DNA of 57,957 nucleotides from a virus. Made by a program: the position numbers and the translations under genes. The notes beneath the pieces were generated by a model that saw only the letters and a list, made by a program, of their open reading frames with translations, was not told where the DNA came from and ran no database searches. Of the stretch, positions 1-57,957 are shown in pieces. Position 1 is the first letter of the stretch. The number at the start of each line of letters is the position of its first letter. The DNA lies in the IMG/VR virus record IMGVR_UViG_3300041583_000163, positions 1-57,957 of that record; one strand, written 5' to 3'.

Positions 1-173
1 TGGCGCCTGTTGCGGATGCTGCCGCTGAGCCGGTTGATGCTGCGCCTGTTGCGGAAACTGCGCCTGTTGCGGATGCTGCGCCCGTTGATGCTGCGCCCGT
101 TGATGCTGCGCCCGTTGATGCTGCGCCGACACCTACTGAGCCCCTCTTGACGGCGGGCACCGCTGAATCAAAC
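1..173. repeat. Left copy of the terminal overlap
   Basis: Bases 1-173 repeat 57755-57957, except that the left copy has three and the right copy five units of a 15-base repeat (coding VDAAP). The frame is the same in both, so the ends are one place in a circular or terminally redundant genome. It is probably an assembly overlap rather than a biological terminal repeat, because it lies inside a gene. Confidence 0.93.
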
Positions 174-3100
174 ACCGAGGTCGAGACAGTAGTGCCTGCG
201 GATGCAACGGATGCAACGGATGCAACGGATGCAACGGATGCAACGGATGCAACGGATGCAACGCCCCGCGTGCAGGCGCTCATTGAGCGGACAGAAAATG
301 CCGTGACGGACGCAGACTTAATGGGCGCAGTAGAAGCGCTCGTTGCTGCCGAAAAAGAGGGCACGCCAGCGGAGCAGGCGCAGGTGCGCGCGTACATAGC
401 TGAAGGTGAAAAGGTAGCGGACTTTAGGGAAAAGGTAGGCGCCGCTCGAAGTGAGGGGCGTAGGTTCCGAACACCGCAAGCCACAGCAGCGCCCACCACA
501 CCTGTCACACCCGAATCGTTGCGCCAGACCATTGCGCAGGTGACACGCTCCTTGGGGCTTCCAGCCAACACCATCTCAGTGCGGGACTCGGTGACGGAAG
601 TAGACCCCTCACAGCAGCCAGGGTCTCGGGCAGGGGCGTTCGTAGACGGGCAAGCCTTCGTATTTGCGGACGGCGTAAGCACCGGGATCGAAGGCCGAAA
701 GACCGTCTTTCATGAGCTGTTCCACAAGGGGCTGCGCACGCTTTTCCCAGGCGCCGATTACATGCGGGTGATGACCTCGCTGTACAACCAAAGCAAGCCG
801 GTAAAAGACCTCGCCGACGCGTGGCTGAACAATGCACAAAACAAAGCAGATGTGGCCGGCATGTCCGTACCCATGCGCCGCGCAGTTGCCGTAGATGAAG
901 TCTTGGCCGGCACGGCCGAGACGCGAAAGTCCCCCACTCTGCTGCGCCAGCTGGGAAATTGGATGGCCGGCATCGCGCAGCGCATGGGAATGACCGACCT
1001 TGCTACCAACATTCGCACTATGGGCATGGGGCCGCTGGAGGCATTCATAGACACCGCGCTACGTGCGGCAGGCAACAAAAACCCTTTGAGCACCCCTGCG
1101 GCCTCGATCGACACACGCTTCAGTACAGCGGGGCCATCCGCAAACCCGGACGTCCAACAAGCCCGAGACATTGTTAACCGACTGGTGCCCCTGGCAGAAC
1201 CTGCACCCGGCATCATCGACGTGACGCGCGACGCGCTCACAAGTGCCGCAGAGAACCCACGTCAAGCGCTGCGATCGGTGCGAGAGGCCACGGCCAACAT
1301 TGCGGAGCGATTTGGTCAGTCCATATGGTCCAACAACACCATCCTCACGGCCAACATCGCACGCGCAACCGTAGAGGCCAACATGACCGCCCCGCAGCAA
1401 ACAGACATGCAGCTGCGAGTGTCAACAGCCATCGCGGTGCACGCAGGGCATACCGCTGACTTGGCTATGACCGAGGGCTCTTTGCGGTACGACCCAACCA
1501 CCTACGGGTGGAAGACCGTGCGTTCGCAGTTCAACTTGCCCAACTTCCAAGAGGCGATACAGAAGGTGTCGACCAAGTATGCGGTCTCGATAGCAGAAGC
1601 TGAGCGCATGTGGCACGCCAGCAGCGAGGCCGGCCGGGTCCAAGAACTGCGTGCAAACAACAGCCGAGCCGAGCTGGCCGCACAGGCGTTTGAGGCTCGT
1701 GGCGACGCTGTGGGCGCCAAGCGGATGCGAGATACCATAAAGAGGCTTCAACGGACCTTGGATCAGGAGCGCGAGGGGCTTGAACTGTACCGCTTGATGC
1801 CTGAACTGCTGGAAGCCAGCAGGATCTGGGACGGCTTTCGCGGCAACATGCTGGACATCATGGTCGAGGGCGGTATGACATCTCAGGCGGAGGCTGAGGC
1901 GCTTTTTGATAACGCCGCCTACGTGCCGTTCTACCGCGATGAGCAGCTGGAGTCCTCTGCGGGACCAAAGACTTTCATCAGCGGCCTGCGTGTGCAACGC
2001 GAAAAGGGGATGACAGGCTCCGAAAAACCCGTTGCAAACCTGATCGACAACATCGTTCGCTGGTCCCATTACGCAGTGGAGCGCTCGGTCAGAAACCGCA
2101 AAGCGCTCGATATGATGGACGCCTCGGTTGAGATGGGTCTGGCCACACCTATTCAAGGCAAGCCCCAGCGTGGTGTGAATTCTGCTCGCGTGTACCGAGA
2201 CGGCAAGGAAGAGTTCTACGACGTCCAAGTGCCCGGCATGATGGAGGCGTTCAGCGGCATCGAGAGTATTGCCATCCCGCTCCTGAACCCGTTCACAAAA
2301 ATAGCTAACTTGCTGCGCGCGAACATCGTGCTGAACCCATTGTTCTCGTTGGTGCAGGTGCCCCAAGACGCCTTCGCAGCCATGTTTACCTCGGGGCTCC
2401 AGCCCAAGTTCGCACTCAGCATCCCCATGCGCGCAATGCGGGAGTTTGCCAAGGTGAGCGTGACGGGTACCAGCAAGACCTACGAGGAGCTGCGCAAGTT
2501 CTCGATCACAGGCCAGAAAGACATCTCAGCGGCCGTGCGGCGCAACGACAGCAACATCCGAGCCGGACTGGGGTCCCAGCCCAGCTATGTGCGCAAAGGG
2601 CTCAGCAAGCTGCACCAGATCTCGATGGCGTCTGACAATGCGGTGCGCCAAGCGGTGTACGAGGCAGCGATGGCGCAGGGTGTGCCCCGCGCACAGGCCA
2701 TGCGAAAAGCCACCGAGATCATCAACTTCCGCTACCGGGGCACCAACGGTGCGATCGGCGTGTTGTCTCAGGTGATACCGTTCATGACTGCGTACTTGGC
2801 AGCAACGAACGTCATGTACAAGACGATCACGGGCACTGGCGTCGCGCCAGCCGAACGCAAGGCAGCTCTGGGTACCTTGGCCGCAACCACGGCAGTCGTA
2901 ACGGCGCTGTCAGCCATCTACGCCATGATGGTGAGTGGCGACGATGGCTACGAAGAGGTGCCAGCCTACAAGCGCGACCGTGTCTTGCTGGTGCCTGGGC
3001 TGGGGGTGAGTATCCCGCTGCGCAACGACTTGTTCCTGCTGCCAAAGATCACGGGCGAGTATCTGTGGAACTCCTTGGCTGACAACGGGATGACCGACAG

Positions 3101-3869
3101 TGCCAAGTTCAAGACCGCTGTGCGTGACTCCGTGGTCAACAGCATGTTTAGCCCGACAGCAGTCCCTCAGTTGCTCAAGCCCGCAGCGGAGGTGATGGCC
3201 AACTACAGCTTCTTCACCAAGCGCGCCTTGATCAGCCCCTACGTGCAGCAGGTCGACGCATCATTGCAGTTCAGCGACAGTACCTCGGAGCTGTCCAAAG
3301 CCCTGGCGCCAATGTTTGGGCGCAATTCGGTATCCCCCATCGCGATGGACCACCTGATTCGAGGTTACCTGGGTACGACAGGCGGGCTGCTGTTGTATGG
3401 AACCAACAAAATATTTGGTCAGATCGGAGATGTCGAGCGTGCAGACCTAAACTTCCGAGACGCCATATCGACCTTCCCCGGGCTGGGCTCCTTAGTGACC
3501 AGAGAAAATGAGTCGGGTTTGGAGGCGGACTTCTACGAGCTGCGCAACGCCACGCTGCGCGCCAAGCGTTCGCTCGACAACATAGAGAGCCGACGCCCCC
3601 AGCAACGCGAAAGCTACCTTGCGCAGCCGAACGTCTTGGCTCGCCTGGAGCTGTCAGGCACAGTAGAGAGCATCAACACCGATCTTGCCGCCATCAACAA
3701 AGAGATACGGGGACTGAACGCACTGCCGGCCACAGCGATAAGTGCCGCTGAGAAGGGTGTGGCCATTGACGAGCTGAAAAAGCTCAAGGCAGACCTGCTG
3801 AAGAATGTGCGTCTGCCAGAGATGCGCGAGAAAGCGAACCTCTTCTCTATCACGGGCAGCGGGGGGTAG
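1..3869 (+). CDS. Giant polyvalent internal virion protein, C-terminal part
   Basis: This is the downstream part of one gene that begins at 56053; its frame runs open from base 3 and matches the frame at the right end of the window. Joined, the protein is about 1866 residues. After a proline/alanine/aspartate linker (VDAAP repeats) and seven DAT triplets (201-263) comes a metallopeptidase-like motif FHELFHKG (bases about 706-730), then long helical regions. Hydrophobic stretches near 2750-2960 could cross a membrane. The arrangement resembles the large polyvalent phage proteins with LPD38-type regions, which are thought to be injected with the DNA. Protease activity is inferred only from the HExxH motif. 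No start codon is needed here; TTG 147 is internal. Confidence 0.88.
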   Translation, partial: APVADAAAEPVDAAPVAETAPVADAAPVDAAPVDAAPVDAAPTPTEPLLTAGTAESNTEVETVVPADATDATDATDATDATDATDATPRVQALIERTENAVTDADLMGAVEALVAAEKEGTPAEQAQVRAYIAEGEKVADFREKVGAARSEGRRFRTPQATAAPTTPVTPESLRQTIAQVTRSLGLPANTISVRDSVTEVDPSQQPGSRAGAFVDGQAFVFADGVSTGIEGRKTVFHELFHKGLRTLFPGADYMRVMTSLYNQSKPVKDLADAWLNNAQNKADVAGMSVPMRRAVAVDEVLAGTAETRKSPTLLRQLGNWMAGIAQRMGMTDLATNIRTMGMGPLEAFIDTALRAAGNKNPLSTPAASIDTRFSTAGPSANPDVQQARDIVNRLVPLAEPAPGIIDVTRDALTSAAENPRQALRSVREATANIAERFGQSIWSNNTILTANIARATVEANMTAPQQTDMQLRVSTAIAVHAGHTADLAMTEGSLRYDPTTYGWKTVRSQFNLPNFQEAIQKVSTKYAVSIAEAERMWHASSEAGRVQELRANNSRAELAAQAFEARGDAVGAKRMRDTIKRLQRTLDQEREGLELYRLMPELLEASRIWDGFRGNMLDIMVEGGMTSQAEAEALFDNAAYVPFYRDEQLESSAGPKTFISGLRVQREKGMTGSEKPVANLIDNIVRWSHYAVERSVRNRKALDMMDASVEMGLATPIQGKPQRGVNSARVYRDGKEEFYDVQVPGMMEAFSGIESIAIPLLNPFTKIANLLRANIVLNPLFSLVQVPQDAFAAMFTSGLQPKFALSIPMRAMREFAKVSVTGTSKTYEELRKFSITGQKDISAAVRRNDSNIRAGLGSQPSYVRKGLSKLHQISMASDNAVRQAVYEAAMAQGVPRAQAMRKATEIINFRYRGTNGAIGVLSQVIPFMTAYLAATNVMYKTITGTGVAPAERKAALGTLAATTAVVTALSAIYAMMVSGDDGYEEVPAYKRDRVLLVPGLGVSIPLRNDLFLLPKITGEYLWNSLADNGMTDSAKFKTAVRDSVVNSMFSPTAVPQLLKPAAEVMANYSFFTKRALISPYVQQVDASLQFSDSTSELSKALAPMFGRNSVSPIAMDHLIRGYLGTTGGLLLYGTNKIFGQIGDVERADLNFRDAISTFPGLGSLVTRENESGLEADFYELRNATLRAKRSLDNIESRRPQQRESYLAQPNVLARLELSGTVESINTDLAAINKEIRGLNALPATAISAAEKGVAIDELKKLKADLLKNVRLPEMREKANLFSITGSGG
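201..263 (+). repeat. Seven tandem copies of a 9-base unit (DAT)
   Basis: The unit gatgcaacg is repeated seven times without a mismatch and codes for Asp-Ala-Thr. It lies in the linker of the giant virion protein just before the peptidase-like region. Perfect identity suggests recent expansion by slippage; loss or gain of units keeps the frame. Confidence 0.95.
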
Positions 3870-20855: not shown

Positions 20856-21511
20856 AGTTCGATCTGTGTTGGGTCAAAGGTGGCAGCTGCGATGTTGGCC
20901 ATGCCCAGATACTGAAGCGCTTTGACATGCGTCTTGTCGCCATTGGTGTCAATGAGCACCTTCGAGCGGAACTCGGCCAGAGTGCCAAAGAAGCAGCTAC
21001 TGCGTACCCGGATAGCGTCTACGTGGTTGAAGAAATACGTGGTGCGTGCTTCAGTGCCTGCCCCTGCAATAGCCAGAAACGGATACCCCTCCTTTACTTT
21101 GGAGCCCTCGAAGCGGCAACCTACACCGAAGCGGCAACCTACACCGAAGCTGCACCGCGCACCGAAGCTGCACCGCGCACCGAAGCTGCACACCGCACCG
21201 AAGCTGCACCCCTCGCCGAAGCTGCACCACGCACCGAAGTTGCACCCCTCGCCGAAGCTGCACCACGGACCGAAGCTGCACCGCGCACCGAAGCTGCACC
21301 CCTCGCCGAAGCTGCACACCGCACCGAAGCTGCACCGATCACCGAAGCGGCAACCTACACCGAAGCTGCACCGCGCACCGAAGCTGCACCGCGCACCGAA
21401 GTTGCACCGCGCACCGAAGACACGGATGTCTGTGTAGTCCCCTGACGGGCACTGTCGAAAACCATCAACGATTGGGAAGGCGTCGAATTCTTCTTGTGTG
21501 TATTTTTTCAT
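20852..21511 (-). CDS. Cysteine-ladder hexapeptide-repeat protein
   Basis: 219 residues. After a short N-terminal domain (MKKYTQEEFDAFPIVDGFRQ) come about 17 six-residue units of the form S-F-G-x-x-C (residues about 31-133), then a globular C-terminal domain. A period of six with an aromatic residue at a fixed place points to a left-handed beta-helix, which would stack 17 cysteines in one row. I have seen related proteins in many phages and bacteria; the function is unknown. The repeat is also visible in DNA as an 18-base period. Confidence 0.85.
   Translation of the reverse strand: MKKYTQEEFDAFPIVDGFRQCPSGDYTDIRVFGARCNFGARCSFGARCSFGVGCRFGDRCSFGAVCSFGEGCSFGARCSFGPWCSFGEGCNFGAWCSFGEGCSFGAVCSFGARCSFGARCSFGVGCRFGVGCRFEGSKVKEGYPFLAIAGAGTEARTTYFFNHVDAIRVRSSCFFGTLAEFRSKVLIDTNGDKTHVKALQYLGMANIAAATFDPTQIEL
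21098..21423 (-). repeat. 18-base tandem repeat coding the S-F-G-x-x-C units
   Basis: Degenerate 18-base units around ccgaagctgcaccgc (plus strand) follow each other through the repeat part of the gene at 20852-21511. The units differ mainly at the two x positions. Confidence 0.85.
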
Positions 21512-25581: not shown

Positions 25582-25834
25582 TAAGTCGTTGATTTATAAG
25601 GGAAAATTTGGTATGTGCAGCAAGGTACACCGGCGCTGTGGAGAACTTTTAAAAACAAAAACAAAAACAAAAACAAAAACAAAAACAAAAACAAAAACAA
25701 AAACAAAAACATAACTATATATATATCTTTAAAGTTAAATAGTATTTATATAGGTAGTGTCCGTCACTCACCGCCACCAAAAACCCCCGCTATATCAACG
25801 ACTTAGGTATGTCACGCGGGGTCCTCAACCCCGC
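25582..25834. other. Candidate replication origin region
   Basis: A non-coding stretch with a 12-base inverted repeat (taagtcgttgat at 25582-25593, atcaacgactta at 25794-25805) enclosing ten AAAAAC units and an AT-rich tract, then a GC-rich hairpin (GCGGGGT-CCTCA-ACCCCGC, 25816-25834). Repeats, easily melted DNA and a place among early genes fit an origin, but nothing proves it. Confidence 0.4.
25651..25710 (+). repeat. Ten perfect tandem copies of AAAAAC
   Basis: 60 bases of exact 6-base units, followed by an AT-rich tract (ataactatatatatat). It is non-coding and stands out sharply from the GC-rich surroundings. Copy number is likely to vary by slippage. Confidence 0.96.
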
Positions 25835-36953: not shown

Positions 36954-38498
36954 ATGAGCCCACACCTAGCTGCACTCTCTCAAGACATCCAGGAGCTGTA
37001 CGATTTTTCAGAAGCCCTTTACCTAGGGGCGCTCACCAGAGTTCAGAACATTCGTTGCAAAGAGCACGGGGTTTTCTCACAGTACACCGGAGCTTTGCGG
37101 AAGGGAATAGGCTGCCCGCACTGCGGAAACGCAGCTAGAGGCGTGTCTAAAAGCAAGAGCGCAGGTGACTTCTTTTTACGTGCCGCCGCAACACATTTGG
37201 GTTTTTACACATACCCTCCGCAAGTGTTCCAAGGCATGAAACACCCCATACAAGCTGTTTGCCCTACTCACGGAGTTTTTAGTATCAAGGCGCTGAAGCA
37301 TTTGTATGACAAGCAAGGGTGCCCAGAATGCGGCGCCTTGAAGCGGGGTATTAGGCTAACGGATGTAAACGTGGGCGCTATGGCCGCAGCTACCAGCATT
37401 GCAAAAAACAGACCCCTGTTTTTTCAGCGTTCCGCCGAAATGCACAAAGGCTTCTATGACTACAGCCAAAGTGACTATCAAGGTGCCCGTAAAAAGCTGG
37501 ACATACTCTGCCCAAAGCATGGTGTTTTCAGTCAACTAGCAGGATCACACATGCGGGGTATGGGCTGCATGAAGTGCAGCAACACCAAGTCCAAAGAAGA
37601 AGACCGCATCTTCCAGCTGATGACCATCTACACCCCCACGCTGCAACGGGACCGCATCCTCATCAAACCCAAGGAGCTGGACATCTACATGCCCGAGCGT
37701 CAGCTGGCCATTGAGTACTGCGGGATGTACTGGCACAGCCACTTCACTGCTGAGGATGAGAAGCGGGACAAGAAGAAGCACATGGCCAAGTACCTTGCCT
37801 GCAAAGAGGCGGGGGTGCGCCTGCTGACCATCTATGAGTCCGAGTGGCTAGAGCATGAATACGCCCTGCGCCGGCTGCTTCGCAACGCTGCTGGTAAGTC
37901 CCGGGGTAAGCTGATGGCACGCAAGTGCGAGCTGCGCAAGGTGGAGGCCCCCGAGGCACGGGCGTTCTACAACAAGTACCACCCGCAGGGCGGCGCAGGC
38001 GCCGGAGAGCACTATGCACTGTTCTGGAAGGGAAAGATCGTGGCCTGTATGCGCTTCGTCTTGGGTGCCAACGACCGAGGCACGGGTGCTGCAAAACGCA
38101 CATGGACCTTGGGGCGCTACGCCACCCGGATCACGGTGGCAGGCGCTGCATCCAGGCTGTTCAAAGCCTTCCTGACAGAGTTCACGCCAGCAGAGGTGAA
38201 GAGCTTCTCGGACAACCGCTACTTTGACGGCGGCATGTACACACAGCTAGGGTTTACCCTAGAGGCAGATGTGATCCCGGACTACCAAGTGTGGAGCCCC
38301 AAGATCGGGGTGCGTCCAAAGTCGCATTACCAGCGCCGCGTTTTGCCTAAGCGATTGTTGGAGCATGGGATCGAAGACAGCTTTGACCCCGAGACAGACC
38401 CCCGCACGGAGCAGGACATGACCTTTCTGATGGGCGCAGGCCGCATCTACGATTGTGGTAAGAAGCGCTGGGTATGGACAGCTGCCCCCAAGCAGTGA
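36954..38498 (+). CDS. Homing endonuclease with zinc-finger repeats
   Basis: 514 residues. The N-terminal 215 hold three repeats of the type C-x2-HG-x-F with a later C-x2-C, likely zinc-binding DNA readers. Residues about 240-265 (KELDIYMPERQLAIEYCGMY, then WHS) fit a PD-(D/E)XK or VSR-like nuclease core. The C-terminal part (about 325-440, with SFSDNRYFDGGMY and LGFTLEAD) looks like a GNAT-type fold often attached to such phage endonucleases. CAGGA precedes ATG 36954. It is inserted after the capsid terminator and is probably a selfish gene. Confidence 0.88.
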   Translation: MSPHLAALSQDIQELYDFSEALYLGALTRVQNIRCKEHGVFSQYTGALRKGIGCPHCGNAARGVSKSKSAGDFFLRAAATHLGFYTYPPQVFQGMKHPIQAVCPTHGVFSIKALKHLYDKQGCPECGALKRGIRLTDVNVGAMAAATSIAKNRPLFFQRSAEMHKGFYDYSQSDYQGARKKLDILCPKHGVFSQLAGSHMRGMGCMKCSNTKSKEEDRIFQLMTIYTPTLQRDRILIKPKELDIYMPERQLAIEYCGMYWHSHFTAEDEKRDKKKHMAKYLACKEAGVRLLTIYESEWLEHEYALRRLLRNAAGKSRGKLMARKCELRKVEAPEARAFYNKYHPQGGAGAGEHYALFWKGKIVACMRFVLGANDRGTGAAKRTWTLGRYATRITVAGAASRLFKAFLTEFTPAEVKSFSDNRYFDGGMYTQLGFTLEADVIPDYQVWSPKIGVRPKSHYQRRVLPKRLLEHGIEDSFDPETDPRTEQDMTFLMGAGRIYDCGKKRWVWTAAPKQ

Positions 38499-42050: not shown

Positions 42051-42479
42051 ATGATGCACGACATGAAGAAGATGAAAGCTGGCGGCATGACCAAGATGAA
42101 AGCCGGCGGCATGACCAAGATGAAAGCCGGCGGCATGACCAAGATGGCCATGGGCGGTACCGCGATGATGCCTAAAATGAAAGCTGGTGGCGCCACCCAC
42201 AAGATGCCTGATGGCAAGATGATGGCGGGCAAAATGCACAAGATGAAGGCTGGCGGTATGGCCGAGAAGACCGTGAACAAGATGCCAGATGGCTCGATGA
42301 TGGCGGGCAAAATGCACAAGATGAAGGCTGGCGGTATGGCCGAGAAGACCGTGAACAAGCACGAGTCGCGGCTGCACCCTGGCAAGACAATGACCAAGAT
42401 GGCCATGGGCGGTGGTATCAAGATGCGTGGTACTGGTGCAGCTACCAAAGGCACCAAGTCCCGTGGGCCAATGGCATAA
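42051..42479 (+). CDS. Methionine/lysine/glycine repeat protein
   Basis: 142 residues made mostly of KMKAGG-type units. Two tandem 26-residue units (KMPDG, MMAGKMHKMKAGG, MAEKTVN) come from near-identical 78-base repeats. About a fifth is methionine and a fifth lysine. No known domain. It may bind DNA or membranes by charge, or form part of the virion interior; I cannot say more. Confidence 0.85.
   Translation: MMHDMKKMKAGGMTKMKAGGMTKMKAGGMTKMAMGGTAMMPKMKAGGATHKMPDGKMMAGKMHKMKAGGMAEKTVNKMPDGSMMAGKMHKMKAGGMAEKTVNKHESRLHPGKTMTKMAMGGGIKMRGTGAATKGTKSRGPMA
42201..42356 (+). repeat. Two tandem 78-base repeats
   Basis: Copies at 42201-42278 and 42279-42356 differ at a few bases only. They code for the 26-residue units of the methionine/lysine/glycine protein. 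Confidence 0.92.
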
Positions 42480-44498: not shown

Positions 44499-45440
44499 AT
44501 GGCAAGTACCTACTCCCCCGACCTCCGCATAGAGCTGATTGGTACTGGTGACCAAGCAGGAAACTGGGGTTCCACGACCAACACCAACTTAGGCACTCTG
44601 ATTGAGAAAGCCATTGTGGGCGTAGCCGCTGTGTCGGTTGTAGCAACGCCGCAGGCACTTACAGCCGCAAACGGTCTGGCAGATCAGGCGCGGCAGGCCA
44701 CGCTGGTGCTGACGACAACCACCACTGCAGACTTCTCGGTACTCGCACCCCCCACGCCCAAGCAGTACGTGGTGTACAACAACACGGCATACGTAGCCAC
44801 GCTGGGCAACGCTACAGCAGTTAACGGAACGACCCCCGCAGGCGGAGCCACAGTCACGGTGGCAGCGGGCAAGATCGCTAGTTTGTGGACAGATGGCACA
44901 AACTTCTTTGGGCAGAACACTGTTGCCGGGGATGTTACGCTTGCTGGGGTTCAGACGCTGACGAATAAAACGCTTGCTTTTGCCGCCAACACATTGACAG
45001 GTGTTGCGTCCACGGGGGCCAATACCTTCACAGGCGCGCAGATACTGTCGGATCAGAGGTTGTCGCGCTCTTTGTTGATCGACACAGGCTACCCGGTTCT
45101 TGACAAGGGTAACTCCGGTACAGCCACGCAGACGTATGACTATACACAGGGCAGCATTCAGACAGCTACCGCCACGGGTTCGCACACGGTAGCGTTTAGC
45201 AACTTCCCACCCACAGGCAATCTTGGCGAGTTGCTGTTTATTCTGACTAACGGGGGCGCGTTCACCGTCACGTGGCCCGGTAGCATTTTGTGGATGAAGC
45301 CCGATGGCACGACTACTTCTTCCATCTCGGTGTATTTGGCGGCTAACAGTGGCCGGACAGCTCTGCAGACATCGGGAGTGGACCAGTTCTTTTTCTGGAC
45401 CAGAAACGCCGGGACTACTGTCTACGGGAAGTTGATATGA
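44499..45440 (+). CDS. Tail fibre-like protein (313 aa)
   Basis: Starts MASTYSPDLRIELIGTGDQA and continues GNWGSTTNTNLGTLIEKAI, a sequence known at the N-terminus of many phage fibre proteins that attach to the tail. The rest is beta-rich with a likely C-terminal domain. It overlaps the propeller-like gene as ATGA. Confidence 0.87.
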   Translation: MASTYSPDLRIELIGTGDQAGNWGSTTNTNLGTLIEKAIVGVAAVSVVATPQALTAANGLADQARQATLVLTTTTTADFSVLAPPTPKQYVVYNNTAYVATLGNATAVNGTTPAGGATVTVAAGKIASLWTDGTNFFGQNTVAGDVTLAGVQTLTNKTLAFAANTLTGVASTGANTFTGAQILSDQRLSRSLLIDTGYPVLDKGNSGTATQTYDYTQGSIQTATATGSHTVAFSNFPPTGNLGELLFILTNGGAFTVTWPGSILWMKPDGTTTSSISVYLAANSGRTALQTSGVDQFFFWTRNAGTTVYGKLI

Positions 45441-46447
45441 GTCTTTTGCAGTTAACGTCACTGGGGGTTGTTGCTAAAAAAATCGACATAGCAATAGCAC
45501 ACAATAGTGCCCCCTTTATTTCAGTCTACCCTTGGTCTTCTGGGTTCGGCACCAAGTACGCCAACCCGTCAACAGCAGTTCCAAGTGCCGGGCTTGGCGT
45601 GGCTTTCAGCCCTTCTGGCAATGACATAGCAATAGCACACATTGATGCCCCCAACATCTCAGTTTACCCTTGGTCTTCTGGGTTTGGTACTAAGTACGCC
45701 AACCCCTCAACAGCGATCCCAAATGTCGGGCTTGGCGTGGCTTTCAGCCCTTCTGGCAATGACATAGCAATAGCACACATTGGTGCCCCCAACATTTCAG
45801 TCTACCCTTGGTCTTCTGGGTTCGGCACCAAGTACGCCAACCCGTCAACAGCGATCCCAAGTGCCGGGCGTGGCGTGGCTTTCAGCCCTTCTGGCAATGA
45901 CATAGCAATAGCACACGATATTGCCCCCAACATTTCAGTCTACCCTTGGTCTTCTGGGTTCGGCACCAAGTACGCCAACCCGTCAACAGCAGTTCCAAGT
46001 AACGGGCTTGGCGTGGCTTTCAGCCCTTCTGGCAATGACATAGCAATAGCACACGAGGGTGCCCCCTTTATTTCAGTCTACCCTTGGTCTTCTGGGTTCG
46101 GCACCAAGTACGCCAACCCCTCAACAGCGATCCCAAATATCGGGAATGGCGTGGCTTTCAGCCCTTCTGGCAATGACATAGCAATAGCACACAATAGTGC
46201 CCCCAACATTTCAGTCTACCCTTGGTCTTCTGGGTTCGGCACCAAGTACGCCAACCCGTCAACAGCGATCCCAAGTGCCGGGCGTGGCGTGGCTTTCAGC
46301 CCTTCTGGCAATGACATAGCAATAGCACACAATGATGCCCCCAACATCTCAGTTTACCCTTGGTCTTCTGGGTTCGGCACCAAGTACGCCAACCCGTCAA
46401 CAGCAGTTCCAAGTAACGGGGTTGGTGTGGCTTTCAGCCCTTCTTAA
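45437..46447 (+). CDS. Seven-repeat beta-propeller candidate, likely receptor-binding
   Basis: 336 residues. After about 15 leader residues, the whole protein is seven units of 46 residues (138 bases), each of the form DIAIAH-xx-AP-x-ISVYPWSS, GFGTKYANPSTA, then a variable P-x-x-G-x-G and VAFSPS. Seven WD40-like units of this length fit a seven-bladed beta-propeller. The units are nearly identical in DNA, while the changes fall in two short places per unit. It lies between tail-fibre genes and the fibre-assembly-like genes, so it is probably a tip or receptor-binding protein. The fold is inferred from repeat number and length. Confidence 0.88.
   Translation: MSLLQLTSLGVVAKKIDIAIAHNSAPFISVYPWSSGFGTKYANPSTAVPSAGLGVAFSPSGNDIAIAHIDAPNISVYPWSSGFGTKYANPSTAIPNVGLGVAFSPSGNDIAIAHIGAPNISVYPWSSGFGTKYANPSTAIPSAGRGVAFSPSGNDIAIAHDIAPNISVYPWSSGFGTKYANPSTAVPSNGLGVAFSPSGNDIAIAHEGAPFISVYPWSSGFGTKYANPSTAIPNIGNGVAFSPSGNDIAIAHNSAPNISVYPWSSGFGTKYANPSTAIPSAGRGVAFSPSGNDIAIAHNDAPNISVYPWSSGFGTKYANPSTAVPSNGVGVAFSPS
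45485..46446 (+). repeat. Seven near-identical 138-base tandem repeats
   Basis: The start gacatagcaatagcacac recurs at 45485, 45623, 45761, 45899, 46037, 46175 and 46313, exactly 138 bases apart. The last unit ends at the stop codon. Confidence 0.97.
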
Positions 46448-46450
46448 AAA

Positions 46451-46762
46451 ATGAACAAACAAGAAACACTAAAAACATCTTTGCAGCAACGCAAAGAAGA
46501 GATATTCGGTTACCAACTGAACATCGACAACTACACATTGATGGTTTCAAGGCTCCCATCCGTCTGGCCTGAAGACATGCTCAAATTCCGAGGGGCCGAT
46601 CTTGCCACGCTGGTCGCCAACATTCAGGACGAAGCGCAGATCATGCTGGTAGCAGACCTTATCTTTCGAGACAAGCTAGCAGCCACACTGATGACCGAAA
46701 AGCTGGAGCAGCGAAAAGCACTGTTGGTGCGCGACATTCTGGCTGAACAAATTAAGGACTAA
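46451..46762 (+). CDS. Conserved protein next to tail-fibre genes (103 aa)
   Basis: Begins MNKQETLKTSLQQRKEEIFG; helical, ending EQRKALLVRDILAEQIKD. It starts three bases after the propeller gene's stop. It may assist fibre assembly. The family is common in phages but I know no role. Confidence 0.8.
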   Translation: MNKQETLKTSLQQRKEEIFGYQLNIDNYTLMVSRLPSVWPEDMLKFRGADLATLVANIQDEAQIMLVADLIFRDKLAATLMTEKLEQRKALLVRDILAEQIKD

Positions 46763-46764
46763 AT

Positions 46765-47256
46765 ATGTTTTACATACGACTTGCCGACAACAAATATCCG
46801 CTCACGGAGACGCAAGTCCGTGCCGCGTTCCCCAACACGAGTTTTCCCAAAGACCTGGGTGAGCCTGAAGGGTACGCCGCCATTGTGTTCAAGCCTGCGC
46901 CAGCAGTCGATCAGACCCTTCAGCAGGTAGTTGAGACAACCCCAGCGCTCGTTAACGGCGAGTACGCCCAGCAGTGGCGTGTGCTGAACCTGACTGCCGA
47001 AGACGTAGAAGCCAAGCGCCTTGCATCAGTCCCTGCGACCGTGACACCAAGGCAGATTCGACAGGCCCTGAGCGCATTCGGGCTGCGCTCCGCAGTAGAA
47101 GACGCTGTGGCGGCCGGCAGTTTAGATCTTCAGGATTGGTGGAACTACGCAAGTGAGTTAGAGCGCAGCAACACGCAGGTCAACGCCATGGCCACGAGTT
47201 TAGGAATCACCTCCTTGCAGCTGGACGATCTGTTCGTAGCCGCCAGCAAGATCTGA
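46765..47256 (+). CDS. Tail-fibre assembly-like protein (163 aa)
   Basis: Begins MFYIRLADNKYPLTETQVRA, with FPNTSFPKDL, an N-terminal domain common in phage fibre-assembly or chaperone-type proteins. A helical C-terminal half (TPRQIRQALSAFGLRSAVED) is like DUF4376-type regions. The function is inferred from family context. Confidence 0.83.
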   Translation: MFYIRLADNKYPLTETQVRAAFPNTSFPKDLGEPEGYAAIVFKPAPAVDQTLQQVVETTPALVNGEYAQQWRVLNLTAEDVEAKRLASVPATVTPRQIRQALSAFGLRSAVEDAVAAGSLDLQDWWNYASELERSNTQVNAMATSLGITSLQLDDLFVAASKI

Positions 47257-55700: not shown

Positions 55701-56045
55701 TTTGAGCGGGATGCTGCTGCAGTGGCTGCTGCGCTGCAGCAGGCCAGCACCGAGCGGACGGCGGAGATATACAGGCCTCCCGGTGATGGCGGCGCTCGAT
55801 CAGCGCTTACCCTAAGCAAAGAGGAGACCCGCGTACTTCTCGGACGTCAGACGTCTATACAGAGAGACCTGAATGGTGCTCTTAAGAGCCCCTTCCGAGA
55901 AGAAGATAAGCAGCGAAAGGCGGCTTTGATTGTGGAGCTTGATGAGATACGTTCGTTGCTTAGGTCTGGGGCGGGTCAAGCGCCTGCTGTAGACTCAAAC
56001 GTGACTCGCTTGCGCTTTGACGCGCAGGGCAACCCGATCCAATAA
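52749..56045 (+). CDS. Large glutamine-rich internal virion protein (1098 aa)
   Basis: Residues about 60-480 are glutamine/alanine-rich helical repeats (LANQQADLTTGQQNL, AQLSTQQLGAQTGM and similar). Glycine motifs near 510-530 and 620-640 (AEGGIV, YAEGGE, FADGGIVGFAEGG) are common in phage internal and tape-measure-like proteins. The C-terminal third is charged coiled coil. Such large proteins form the inner core and are ejected into the host. Overlaps its upstream neighbour by four bases. Confidence 0.88.
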   Translation: MNYSRRELYAAGEPFGESATRREVGGRIVYGGGGGGNTTATSNTSNVPAYAEGAFKDMLGRADALSNAPFVPYGGERNAQFTPLQQQAFGSAAGQQVAPQVGQASGLAAAASQQAMGSGQFGPGTFTPMGVQAPQLSNFQMGPAQQVSSERVNAQNIEAAQTGYNPNIQQFQMGPAERVGTTSFTQPGAAQQFMNPYMQNVVNIQTREAQRNADIAGTQRGADAVRAGGFGGSRQAIMDAEAQRNLSQQLGDIQATGSQAAFQQAQNQFNAEQGIGLQAAQANQQAGLTTGQQNLSSNLSTQQLGVQTGLQTALANLSNQQQSNVQNAANNLQAQGMNQESALRAALANQQADLTTGQQNLAAQLSTQQLGAQTGMQAQLANQQTGMDAQRAFEQSRQFGRSSEIQGAQAALQGANTLGQLGQQQFGQQMDITQQQNNLGNQQQQNVQRILDQQFGDFQAERDRPFQQIGFQSDLLRGAGSTTRTMAPGPSALSQITGAGVAAAGLGAFKAEGGIVSARGYAEGGEIEGARYAGGFAAGGITEPLALPDRLRTLSDQQLSQFAQQNKEDLFSMALAKSETDARARMRQMGAPTQAPQGTVMDEVSAEMAPQADPMMGGIAAGAPDMDFADGGIVGFAEGGTSSQFMQDLSQLPARFDAFKERTRISDAEKKAREDASRAFRDERMSERQKTSFGNYLFGSPEREAEGLANMQAQDAAAAAALADREAQANYGNEGRRTPTTLAAPASQSRPNQAPGAGQGIAAAVPPTRAPAAPAASGGQGIAAAARVAPGAAQAPQTAAELMAQMRALSGADVAEGRMRADQQEINALGAKGSEQDRADFEAEVAQRSVLGAEREKRLKTQEDRAEAGDKKSFNMALVEAGLAIMGGQSPNALTNIAEGAKAGVKGFQARLDKYETEKQRLDDARDRIDELRRAEGMADGKEKRLLGREIRTTELAGKQALAKINVDIFGATQKQADSAAKAAFERDAAAVAAALQQASTERTAEIYRPPGDGGARSALTLSKEETRVLLGRQTSIQRDLNGALKSPFREEDKQRKAALIVELDEIRSLLRSGAGQAPAVDSNVTRLRFDAQGNPIQ

Positions 56046-56052
56046 GGCCCCC

Positions 56053-57957
56053 ATGACAATCGAAGCTGTGCTGTCGGACGGACGCGTCCTTGAGTTTCCT
56101 GACGGCACGCCGTCTTCGGTCATACAAGCCACGGTCAAACGTCTGGTAGCAGCTGCGCCGAACCCCAACGCAAACAAGACGTTCCTCGGAGACATTGGCA
56201 CTTCGCTCAAACAGGGCGCATTGGGGTCTACCAAGGCGCTGACCAATGTGTTCGGCGCGGACAACGCGGCGTCTCGTGCACTCCAAGCGCGTGTGGATGC
56301 GGCCCAGACGGAGTTCAGTCCTGCGCGTCAGGAAGAGCTGAAGATGCAGGCCGAGCGCATGAAGGCCGCTGAGGCATCCGGCAGCATGATGGAAGAGATT
56401 AAGGCAGCTGCAAAAAGTGTTGCGGAGGCACCGCTGCAGTCTGCTGCCCAAGCCATCGGCTCATTCGCACCATATGTACCCGCCCTGATAGCAGGCCCTG
56501 GAGCGGCAGCACTGGGCTTAGCTGGAAGAAGTTTGGCTATTGCCAAGGCCATAACCAGGGTGGCCCCCAAGTACATCGGCACCGCACAAGGTATGGGCGC
56601 TGTCAAGGGCGCGATCTACGACGGCGTGTATCGAGAAGAGCTGAAAGCGGGCACCGACGACGCCGCTGCAAAGGCCAAGGCGCAGAAGGCACAGGAGTTC
56701 TTCGGAGCCAACCTAGACCAGATAGCATTGGGTGGGATATTCGGCCGGGTTGCAGCTTCTACAGGTCTTGAGCGGCTGCTTGTCCCCGGTGCTGTGCGTA
56801 CTGCAGGCGTTATCCCGCGTGTGCTGGGTACCGTAGTGCCCGAGGCGCTCGGCGAGGCGGCACAAGGTGGCCAAGAGCGATTGGCGCAGAACATAGCTTT
56901 GCAGCGCGAGGGCTTCGACGTCCCTACGCTGCGCGGTGTGGCCGGCGGTGCTACACAAGAAGGTCTTACCGGTGCCTTGGGTTCAGGTGTTGTGGCAGCT
57001 GCACTGGGGCCGACGGGTACACCACAGGGCACCCCACCGACTGCAAGCGATGCAGAGACCGCCCAAGAAGAAGCAGACCAGCGTGCACGTGAAGATGCGC
57101 GTGCAGCCGGCCGCACAGAGCGTGCTGATGCCGAGGTAGGCCCCGAGGCCATACGCGGACGCTCCTATGGAGACCTGACGCAGCAACTCGAAGCGCTTAA
57201 GACGCAGCGACGCACCCCTGACATCACGGAGCAGATGCGCCTAATTCGAGCGCAGATGAGCGAGATGAACGTGCAGTCGGTCAACGCGCAGCGTGAAGCC
57301 ACCATACAGGCCAGACGCGAGGCGGGCATGGCCGCGCGAAGTGCGTTTTCTGCCACAGACCCTCAGCAGGTTGAGATCGGTGGGCTTGGAAGGCCCGGTA
57401 TTGCCCCGCAGCCCGCAGCAGATGCGCAGCCCGTTGCGGCCACAACGCAAGAACTCGAGGCCGCTGGTCAAGAGCGCTTACCCCTGCGTCGAACACCTGA
57501 AGGCGTTGATACCTCGCCTGTCATACCCGAGCCCGTGTTGCGCACCAAACCCGAGAAGATCGCACCCCCCGAGATAAACGTCGAAGACGTCGGGGAAGGT
57601 GTTGTTAAGTACGGACAGGGCACCTCGGGGCAGACGTTTATCACCGAAGTGCTGGCGCTTCGAGAAGCGGGAACGCAGACGCCTGAAACACGCAAGGCAC
57701 TCGTTGGGAAGTCGACAAATAAGGCAGTCATATACGACGCCCTGATTCCTGAAGTGGCGCCTGTTGCGGATGCTGCCGCTGAGCCGGTTGATGCTGCGCC
57801 TGTTGCGGAAACTGCGCCTGTTGCGGATGCTGCGCCCGTTGATGCTGCGCCCGTTGATGCTGCGCCCGTTGATGCTGCGCCCGTTGATGCTGCGCCCGTT
57901 GATGCTGCGCCGACACCTACTGAGCCCCTCTTGACGGCGGGCACCGCTGAATCAAAC
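56053..57957 (+). CDS. Giant polyvalent internal virion protein, N-terminal part
   Basis: 635 residues to the window end, continuing in frame at base 174 on the left. It starts MTIEAVLSDGRVLEFPDGTP, a small domain seen at the front of other large phage virion proteins. Two hydrophobic glycine/alanine-rich stretches (about 136-175 and 245-315) may help membrane passage. A charged coiled coil and a long proline/alanine linker with VADAAP and VDAAP repeats follow. The whole protein is about 1866 residues and would be packed in the head and injected. Confidence 0.9.
   Translation, partial: MTIEAVLSDGRVLEFPDGTPSSVIQATVKRLVAAAPNPNANKTFLGDIGTSLKQGALGSTKALTNVFGADNAASRALQARVDAAQTEFSPARQEELKMQAERMKAAEASGSMMEEIKAAAKSVAEAPLQSAAQAIGSFAPYVPALIAGPGAAALGLAGRSLAIAKAITRVAPKYIGTAQGMGAVKGAIYDGVYREELKAGTDDAAAKAKAQKAQEFFGANLDQIALGGIFGRVAASTGLERLLVPGAVRTAGVIPRVLGTVVPEALGEAAQGGQERLAQNIALQREGFDVPTLRGVAGGATQEGLTGALGSGVVAAALGPTGTPQGTPPTASDAETAQEEADQRAREDARAAGRTERADAEVGPEAIRGRSYGDLTQQLEALKTQRRTPDITEQMRLIRAQMSEMNVQSVNAQREATIQARREAGMAARSAFSATDPQQVEIGGLGRPGIAPQPAADAQPVAATTQELEAAGQERLPLRRTPEGVDTSPVIPEPVLRTKPEKIAPPEINVEDVGEGVVKYGQGTSGQTFITEVLALREAGTQTPETRKALVGKSTNKAVIYDALIPEVAPVADAAAEPVDAAPVAETAPVADAAPVDAAPVDAAPVDAAPVDAAPVDAAPTPTEPLLTAGTAESN
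57755..57957. repeat. Right copy of the terminal overlap, with five 15-base units
   Basis: Matches 1-173 exactly apart from two additional units coding VDAAP (five here, three there). The joined genome would be about 57,784 bases if the right copy is taken. Confidence 0.93.

Follow-up and report, generated by a model that had tools for sequence, protein, structure and literature searches.

What does a phage do with a gene made of one unit repeated seven times? The question is raised by the window, i.e. the whole stretch of 57,957 nucleotides analysed here (IMG/VR virus record IMGVR_UViG_3300041583_000163). In it, the initial annotation had singled out an open reading frame at positions 45437-46447 (plus strand) as a candidate seven-bladed beta-propeller, and possibly a new type of receptor-binding protein. 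We consider it likely that this gene encodes a seven-bladed, WD40-like, distal receptor-binding module of a tail fibre, which is diversified by selection and by shuffling of its units without the help of a phage-encoded retroelement.

The repeat array and the closure of the ring

The reading frame of 336 amino acids is present exactly as described, and so are its seven near-identical 46-residue units. The repeat array (45485-46444, plus strand) consists of seven 138-bp units of 46 codons each, the last being two codons short. In agreement with the matrix of unit comparisons, Tandem Repeats Finder recovers a period of 138 and 7.0 copies with 90% matches, 0 indels and a score of 1570, which is well above chance expectation. 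Any two units differ at 2-21 of 138 nt, and the longest exact repeat within the array measures 134 bp.

Unit 7 lacks two residues because the stop codon comes right after VAFSPS. The N-terminus of the protein falls within blade 1, and the C-terminal VAFSPS is precisely the strand that is missing from this blade. It follows that the seven units are circularly permuted and joined by "velcro" closure, the usual way in which propeller rings close. The putative ring-closing strand a (GVAFSPS, 46424-46444, plus strand) is read from the sequence and is also modelled as a strand (E328-333) by AF2.

Predicted fold

In WD40-like propellers, multi-stranded blades, usually seven of them, close into a ring. 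When AF2 was given an alignment of the window protein with 45 natural relatives (46 sequences), it returned a model with a pLDDT of 94, a pTM of 0.91 and a regular repeating strand pattern; according to DSSP three strands per blade are clear while the outer strand is weakly marked. The best Foldseek match of this model in the PDB is the designed seven-bladed WRAP propeller 7bid (E 3.2e-19, TM 0.73/0.84). The WRAP designs are followed by other WD40 propellers and by lactonase propellers, the latter ranking below the WD40-type matches. A phmmer search with the window protein likewise found WRAP designs and, at 1.8e-32, 2ymu, the WD40 structure of a highly repetitive propeller. Among the nearest viral models are "WD40/YVTN" proteins of uncultured Caudovirales and one protein from Pseudomonas phage POR1. 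Together with the blade profile described below, these results strongly support a closed seven-bladed WD40-like propeller, as predicted in the initial annotation. A solenoid-like model obtained by AF2 without an alignment was set aside in favour of the alignment-based one, since its confidence was low (pLDDT 41.7) and its fold matches meaningless; such failures can happen with near-identical repeats.

The annotation had called for a comparison with WD40-type families. Similarity to 2ymu and the WRAP designs is evident, whereas the strict WD40 family Pfam PF00400 yields no match to the window protein, related propeller models match only below their cut-offs, and Lactonase PF10282 scores 10.8 bits against a cut-off of 21.7. 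Strand c of the blades ends in YPWS, not WD. Because a strict Pfam WD40 match is missing, the product is called WD40-like here. In 2ymu and the WRAP designs (7bid, 7big, 7bif and 7bie; the WRAPs being seven-bladed), near-identical WD40-like blades close into a ring, as they are predicted to do in the window propeller. However, these proteins are cellular or designed, whereas the window propeller is viral and adjoins tail genes, and its variation is limited to one face.

A widespread family

Propellers of this kind had been presumed rare in phage tails. The data do not support this: with two blades as query at least 578 loci were found in IMG/VR, so that hundreds of viral contigs carry the family and the window gene is not a one-off. 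Cultured relatives include Pseudomonas phage POR1 (Orf76), ZRG1 and CGphi29. Of 104 distinct complete genes, 87 have 7 blades and 6 have 14 according to a blade profile (93/104 in all); some of the genes with other counts belong to distant relatives, whose blades the profile recognises only in part. An example with 14 blades, separated by a mid-protein linker, is encoded by MW202701.1 (Podoviridae sp. ctYwJ313; UOF80687.1, "WD40 repeat protein"), where a partner gene (see below) and a tail assembly chaperone adjoin the propeller. This protein and other database homologues belong to the same family as the window propeller, but their blades are less uniform. In MW202701.1 the propeller was annotated from its motif only and the partner as hypothetical, and a function is given for neither. 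A survey of highly repetitive propellers includes some viral ones, although the word "phage" is absent from its text (PMC9218822), and a literature search found no paper describing the propeller and its partner as a module. What is new is the partner gene, previously undescribed; the propeller fold and its mode of evolution have known parallels.

The link to the tail fibre

The gene upstream of the propeller (44499-45440, plus strand, 313 aa) is tail-fibre-like, and its stop codon shares 4 nt (ATGA) with the propeller start. The claim that the propeller sits with tail-fibre genes holds in so far as the upstream counterparts in relatives match tail-fibre, virion, Mtd_N, collagen and S74 families. 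However, the window's own upstream gene has no match to any annotated tail-fibre family; its sole match is phrog_31104 (8e-11), a family of unknown function, so in the window the link is one of position and homology only.

The upstream genes of relatives commonly finish in similar tip-like domains. At split loci this fibre-tip domain ends the upstream gene and at fused loci it immediately precedes the propeller (51% identity, E 9e-31), which means that gene order in the former equals domain order in the latter. Thus L024 combines Mtd_N, the tip domain and the propeller in one polypeptide, L063 has its propeller fused to a tail fibre in a similar way but without Mtd_N, and in phage ZRG1 a related propeller is joined to the tail terminator via a Pro-Asp-rich linker. 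On the downstream side, beyond the partner, lies a tail-assembly-chaperone-like gene (46765-47256, plus strand, 163 aa) that resembles L001:3236-3694 (E 9e-9), which in turn matches PF16778 at 4.8e-21. A homologue comes after 46/84 distinct partner genes.

These fusions and neighbours in relatives point to receptor binding on a tail fibre as the best-supported function of the putative adhesin, and to its presence in the virion. To this extent the proposal of a receptor-binding protein stands, while the rarity that made it seem a new type does not. One could instead regard the propeller as a structural or decoration domain of the virion with an affinity for particles, mucus or sugars, whose variation has causes other than primary host recognition. 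Weak adhesion domains occur on many virion proteins, and the tail terminator that bears the ZRG1 propeller would be an unusual site for a primary receptor binder. However, most relatives lie directly downstream of fibre-like genes, about half precede tail-assembly-chaperone-like genes and the direct fusions join fibre-tip and Mtd_N domains, so that we rate a mere decoration as unlikely.

Propellers within phage host-recognition proteins, a setting that resembles the role proposed for the window protein, are known from the endosialidase tailspikes and from phi11. The propeller of the former is enzymatic, that of the latter is a five-bladed platform domain, and to our knowledge neither is made of near-identical units. 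In phi11 the propeller domain is part of the receptor-binding protein Gp45 (PMC4901313).

A partner gene

The gene that follows the propeller (46451-46762, plus strand) encodes 103 amino acids with the motif YQ(I/L)NIDNY ... EQ(K/R)KA, which in the window reads YQLNIDNY ... EQRKA. No convincing match was found in Pfam, PHROGs, NCBIfam or the PDB. PDB 9l08 was rejected as a homologue of the partner, as no single stretch passes alone despite an overall value of 6e-4, and so was a match of NCBIfam MAG6090_repeat on P0001, where the best stretch has just 11 residues.

With the partner as query, 419 viral loci were found, and in bacterial genomes a single relative, on a MAG contig (L163). All distinct copies with sufficient upstream sequence (90/90) lie downstream of a propeller. 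Judged by gene order, the partner is to all appearances dedicated to the propeller. Conversely, when distinct complete propellers were fetched independently, 37/44 had a partner. It accompanies 36/40 of the free-standing propellers versus 1/4 of those with a long N-terminal extension, although these numbers are small, and propellers fused directly to a fibre are mostly without it. An exception to this trend is L162:1136-3970, which has an N-terminal extension of ~600 aa yet keeps the partner. Some copies in tandem propeller arrays (L006, L043) have no partner. L115 and L117 each hold two propeller-partner pairs, and the tandem arrangement of two pairs, seen in L115, L116 and L117, points to joint duplication of propeller and partner. 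The partner may be an adaptor or a folding helper.

Variation is confined to one face

Amino-acid differences between the units of the window all fall within two hypervariable stretches that recur every 138 bp: codons 7-11, the b-c loop (45503-45517 in unit 1, plus strand), and codons 32-38, the d-a loop (45578-45598 in unit 1, plus strand). In the model of unit 2, codons 7-11 (residues 69-73) lie between strands b (63-68) and c (74-79); residues 94-100, encoded by codons 32-38, run into strand a (98-103). Given the antiparallel geometry of the modelled blade, the two loops are predicted to share one face, the one known in WD40 domains as the "top". The opposite face, with the a-b and c-d loops (SPSGN and SSGFGTKY), is constant. 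The variable loop codons of the window units have a pN/pS of 1.76; in all other codons the 21 unit pairs show 60 synonymous versus 0 nonsynonymous differences, counts that do not depend on the order of the units. The same positions stand out family-wide, where the three most variable columns map to these loops with entropies of 3.25-3.48 bits. With a mean blade-to-blade identity of 0.892, the window copy ranks 1/89 among family members (median 0.71). Its peculiarity is this extreme uniformity of the blades combined with the confinement of all variation to one face.

An array of near-identical repeats might also be an assembly artefact or a pseudogene, that is a repeat collapsed or expanded from short reads and without function. 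A unit of 138 bp is close to typical short-read length, and the exact repeat of 134 bp adds to this suspicion. However, the independent contig L005 shows the same seven units, and the family keeps to 7 or 14 blades. The explanation is largely refuted by the synonymous/nonsynonymous pattern of the framework, and its probability appears negligible.

Change between related phages

The sister phage L005 shares 98.2% identity with the window across the 2 kb upstream and 94.8% across 6 kb including the propeller. Genes downstream are 91-98% identical, the propeller 87.8%. The residues that differ are concentrated in the top loops (40/84 sites versus 9/225 elsewhere, p=1.8e-18), and to judge from this alignment the variable face appears to have been rebuilt on a retained framework. 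The top-face bias recurs, at two to four fold, in several other pairs of relatives whose flanking sequences are roughly 80-98% alike. In the L095-L114 group, by comparison, the top face changes little among close phages, so diversification is not universal.

Recombination probably shuffles the units. Among pairs of biallelic sites in the array, 55/91 break the four-gamete rule (Rm at least 4), for example the pair formed by a three-base N/F difference in codon 11 and a three-base I/V difference in codons 31-32, although this mosaic signal could be partly chimeric if the contig is a short-read assembly with a wrong unit order. For similar fungal WD40 arrays, assemblies from short reads have proved unreliable, with uncertain unit order (PMC12222747). 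With this proviso, the window units look like mosaics, and the pattern is consistent with exchange between units.

A retroelement could also have written the variation: in a DGR, the variable codons would arise by adenine-directed reverse transcription off a template repeat. In the window and L005, nearly all hypervariable codons (7, 8, 34, 35 and 37) follow the pattern NNY, their third base hardly changing; AAY codons could be the source of most changes in the window; and one relative (L024) carries a fused Mtd_N, the N-terminal domain of a classic DGR target. However, RVT_1 was found neither in the window nor in 21 related records, several of which are fragments, no template-like copy exists outside the propeller gene within the window, and adjacent adenine-rich codons, e.g. 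GACATAGCAATAGCACAC, remain fixed. Variation restricted largely to the first two bases is a property of the most uniform arrays; elsewhere in the family the third base is about as variable (mean of 2.6 distinct bases, against 2.7 and 3.1 for the first two). In view of the missing reverse transcriptase and template copy, a DGR is very unlikely and was rejected. Mtd of Bordetella phage BPP-1 is itself a hypervariable receptor binder, but its variation is carried by a C-type lectin fold and diversified through a DGR, whereas the window gene is predicted to encode a propeller and no RT was found with it.

The closest known case in mode of evolution appears to be that of the fungal HNWD receptors HET-D and HET-E. 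Their near-identical WD40 repeats undergo concerted evolution, while a few codons per repeat on the binding face diversify under selection (PMC12222747). The window propeller combines the same traits: repeats that are almost alike and, on one face, a small number of codons that diversify. This is a likeness and not membership, since HNWD proteins are NLR sensors with variable repeat number, whereas the window protein is a free-standing phage propeller whose family is mostly fixed at seven; an NLR architecture (NACHT/STAND core) is absent from the window ORF, which contains the propeller only. The parallel invites the idea of a non-virion scaffold inside the cell, the variable face of which would bind host or rival-phage proteins for counter-defence or exclusion, as in HNWD sensors. 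WD40 propellers usually serve protein-protein contacts, and the pattern of variation is indeed like that of the fungal NLR sensors (PMC12222747). However, the fusions to tail proteins in relatives, the position within the structural gene block and the overlap with the upstream fibre-like gene leave an intracellular role highly improbable.

A model for the propeller module

In the preferred reading, the propeller would be the distal, receptor-binding module of a phage tail fibre. Framework strands and bottom loops would stay nearly constant, so that, as we propose, the ring always closes. Codons 7-11 and 32-38 of every unit, lying on one face, would be under diversifying selection and would be shuffled by recombination from unit to unit and among related phages; two variable loops on each of seven blades could thus provide a large combinatorial binding surface. 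The partner protein would most likely fold the free-standing propeller or attach it to the fibre tip.

Phages must keep altering their host-binding tips, and DGRs are a well-studied targeted route to such variation. The propeller system looks like another such route, in which a repeat scaffold folds whatever its variable face holds, and like a common phage way to change binding targets without a mutating retroelement. It is quite possible, although we put this forward as a generalisation, that propeller and adaptor form a widespread retroelement-free system of antigen variation in environmental phages, a two-gene module borne on diverse fibre tips whose scaffold evolves in concert while recombination and selection rewrite the binding face and host recognition changes. 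The propeller reading would account for a large set of phage genes labelled just "WD40" or hypothetical, and the partner is a protein family to add to Pfam, PHROGs and NCBIfam, from which it is missing. The phage propeller moreover parallels fungal allorecognition receptors and may be a natural template for symmetric binding scaffolds.

Other features of the genome

Positions 1-127 of the window are identical to 57755-57881, inside a 15-nt tandem repeat with unequal copy number at the two ends, and the ORFs 3-3869 and 56017-57957 resemble a single gene split by the contig ends. These two features make it probable that the genome is nearly complete, with a circular or a terminally redundant form. 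An HNH/homing-endonuclease-like gene (36954-38498) lies directly behind the major capsid gene, and a 142-aa ORF built of KMKAGGMTK-type repeats (42051-42479) is located between structural genes. A 46-nt element containing the interrupted palindrome CCGCAGAACCGCTGCGG is dispersed in six copies (19001, 19435, 20052, 21833, 23018 and 23628) and is possibly regulatory. Further repeats comprise an 18-nt unit in ~17 copies (21109-21419), in overlapping ORFs of both strands, and ten perfect copies of AAAAAC (25651-25711).
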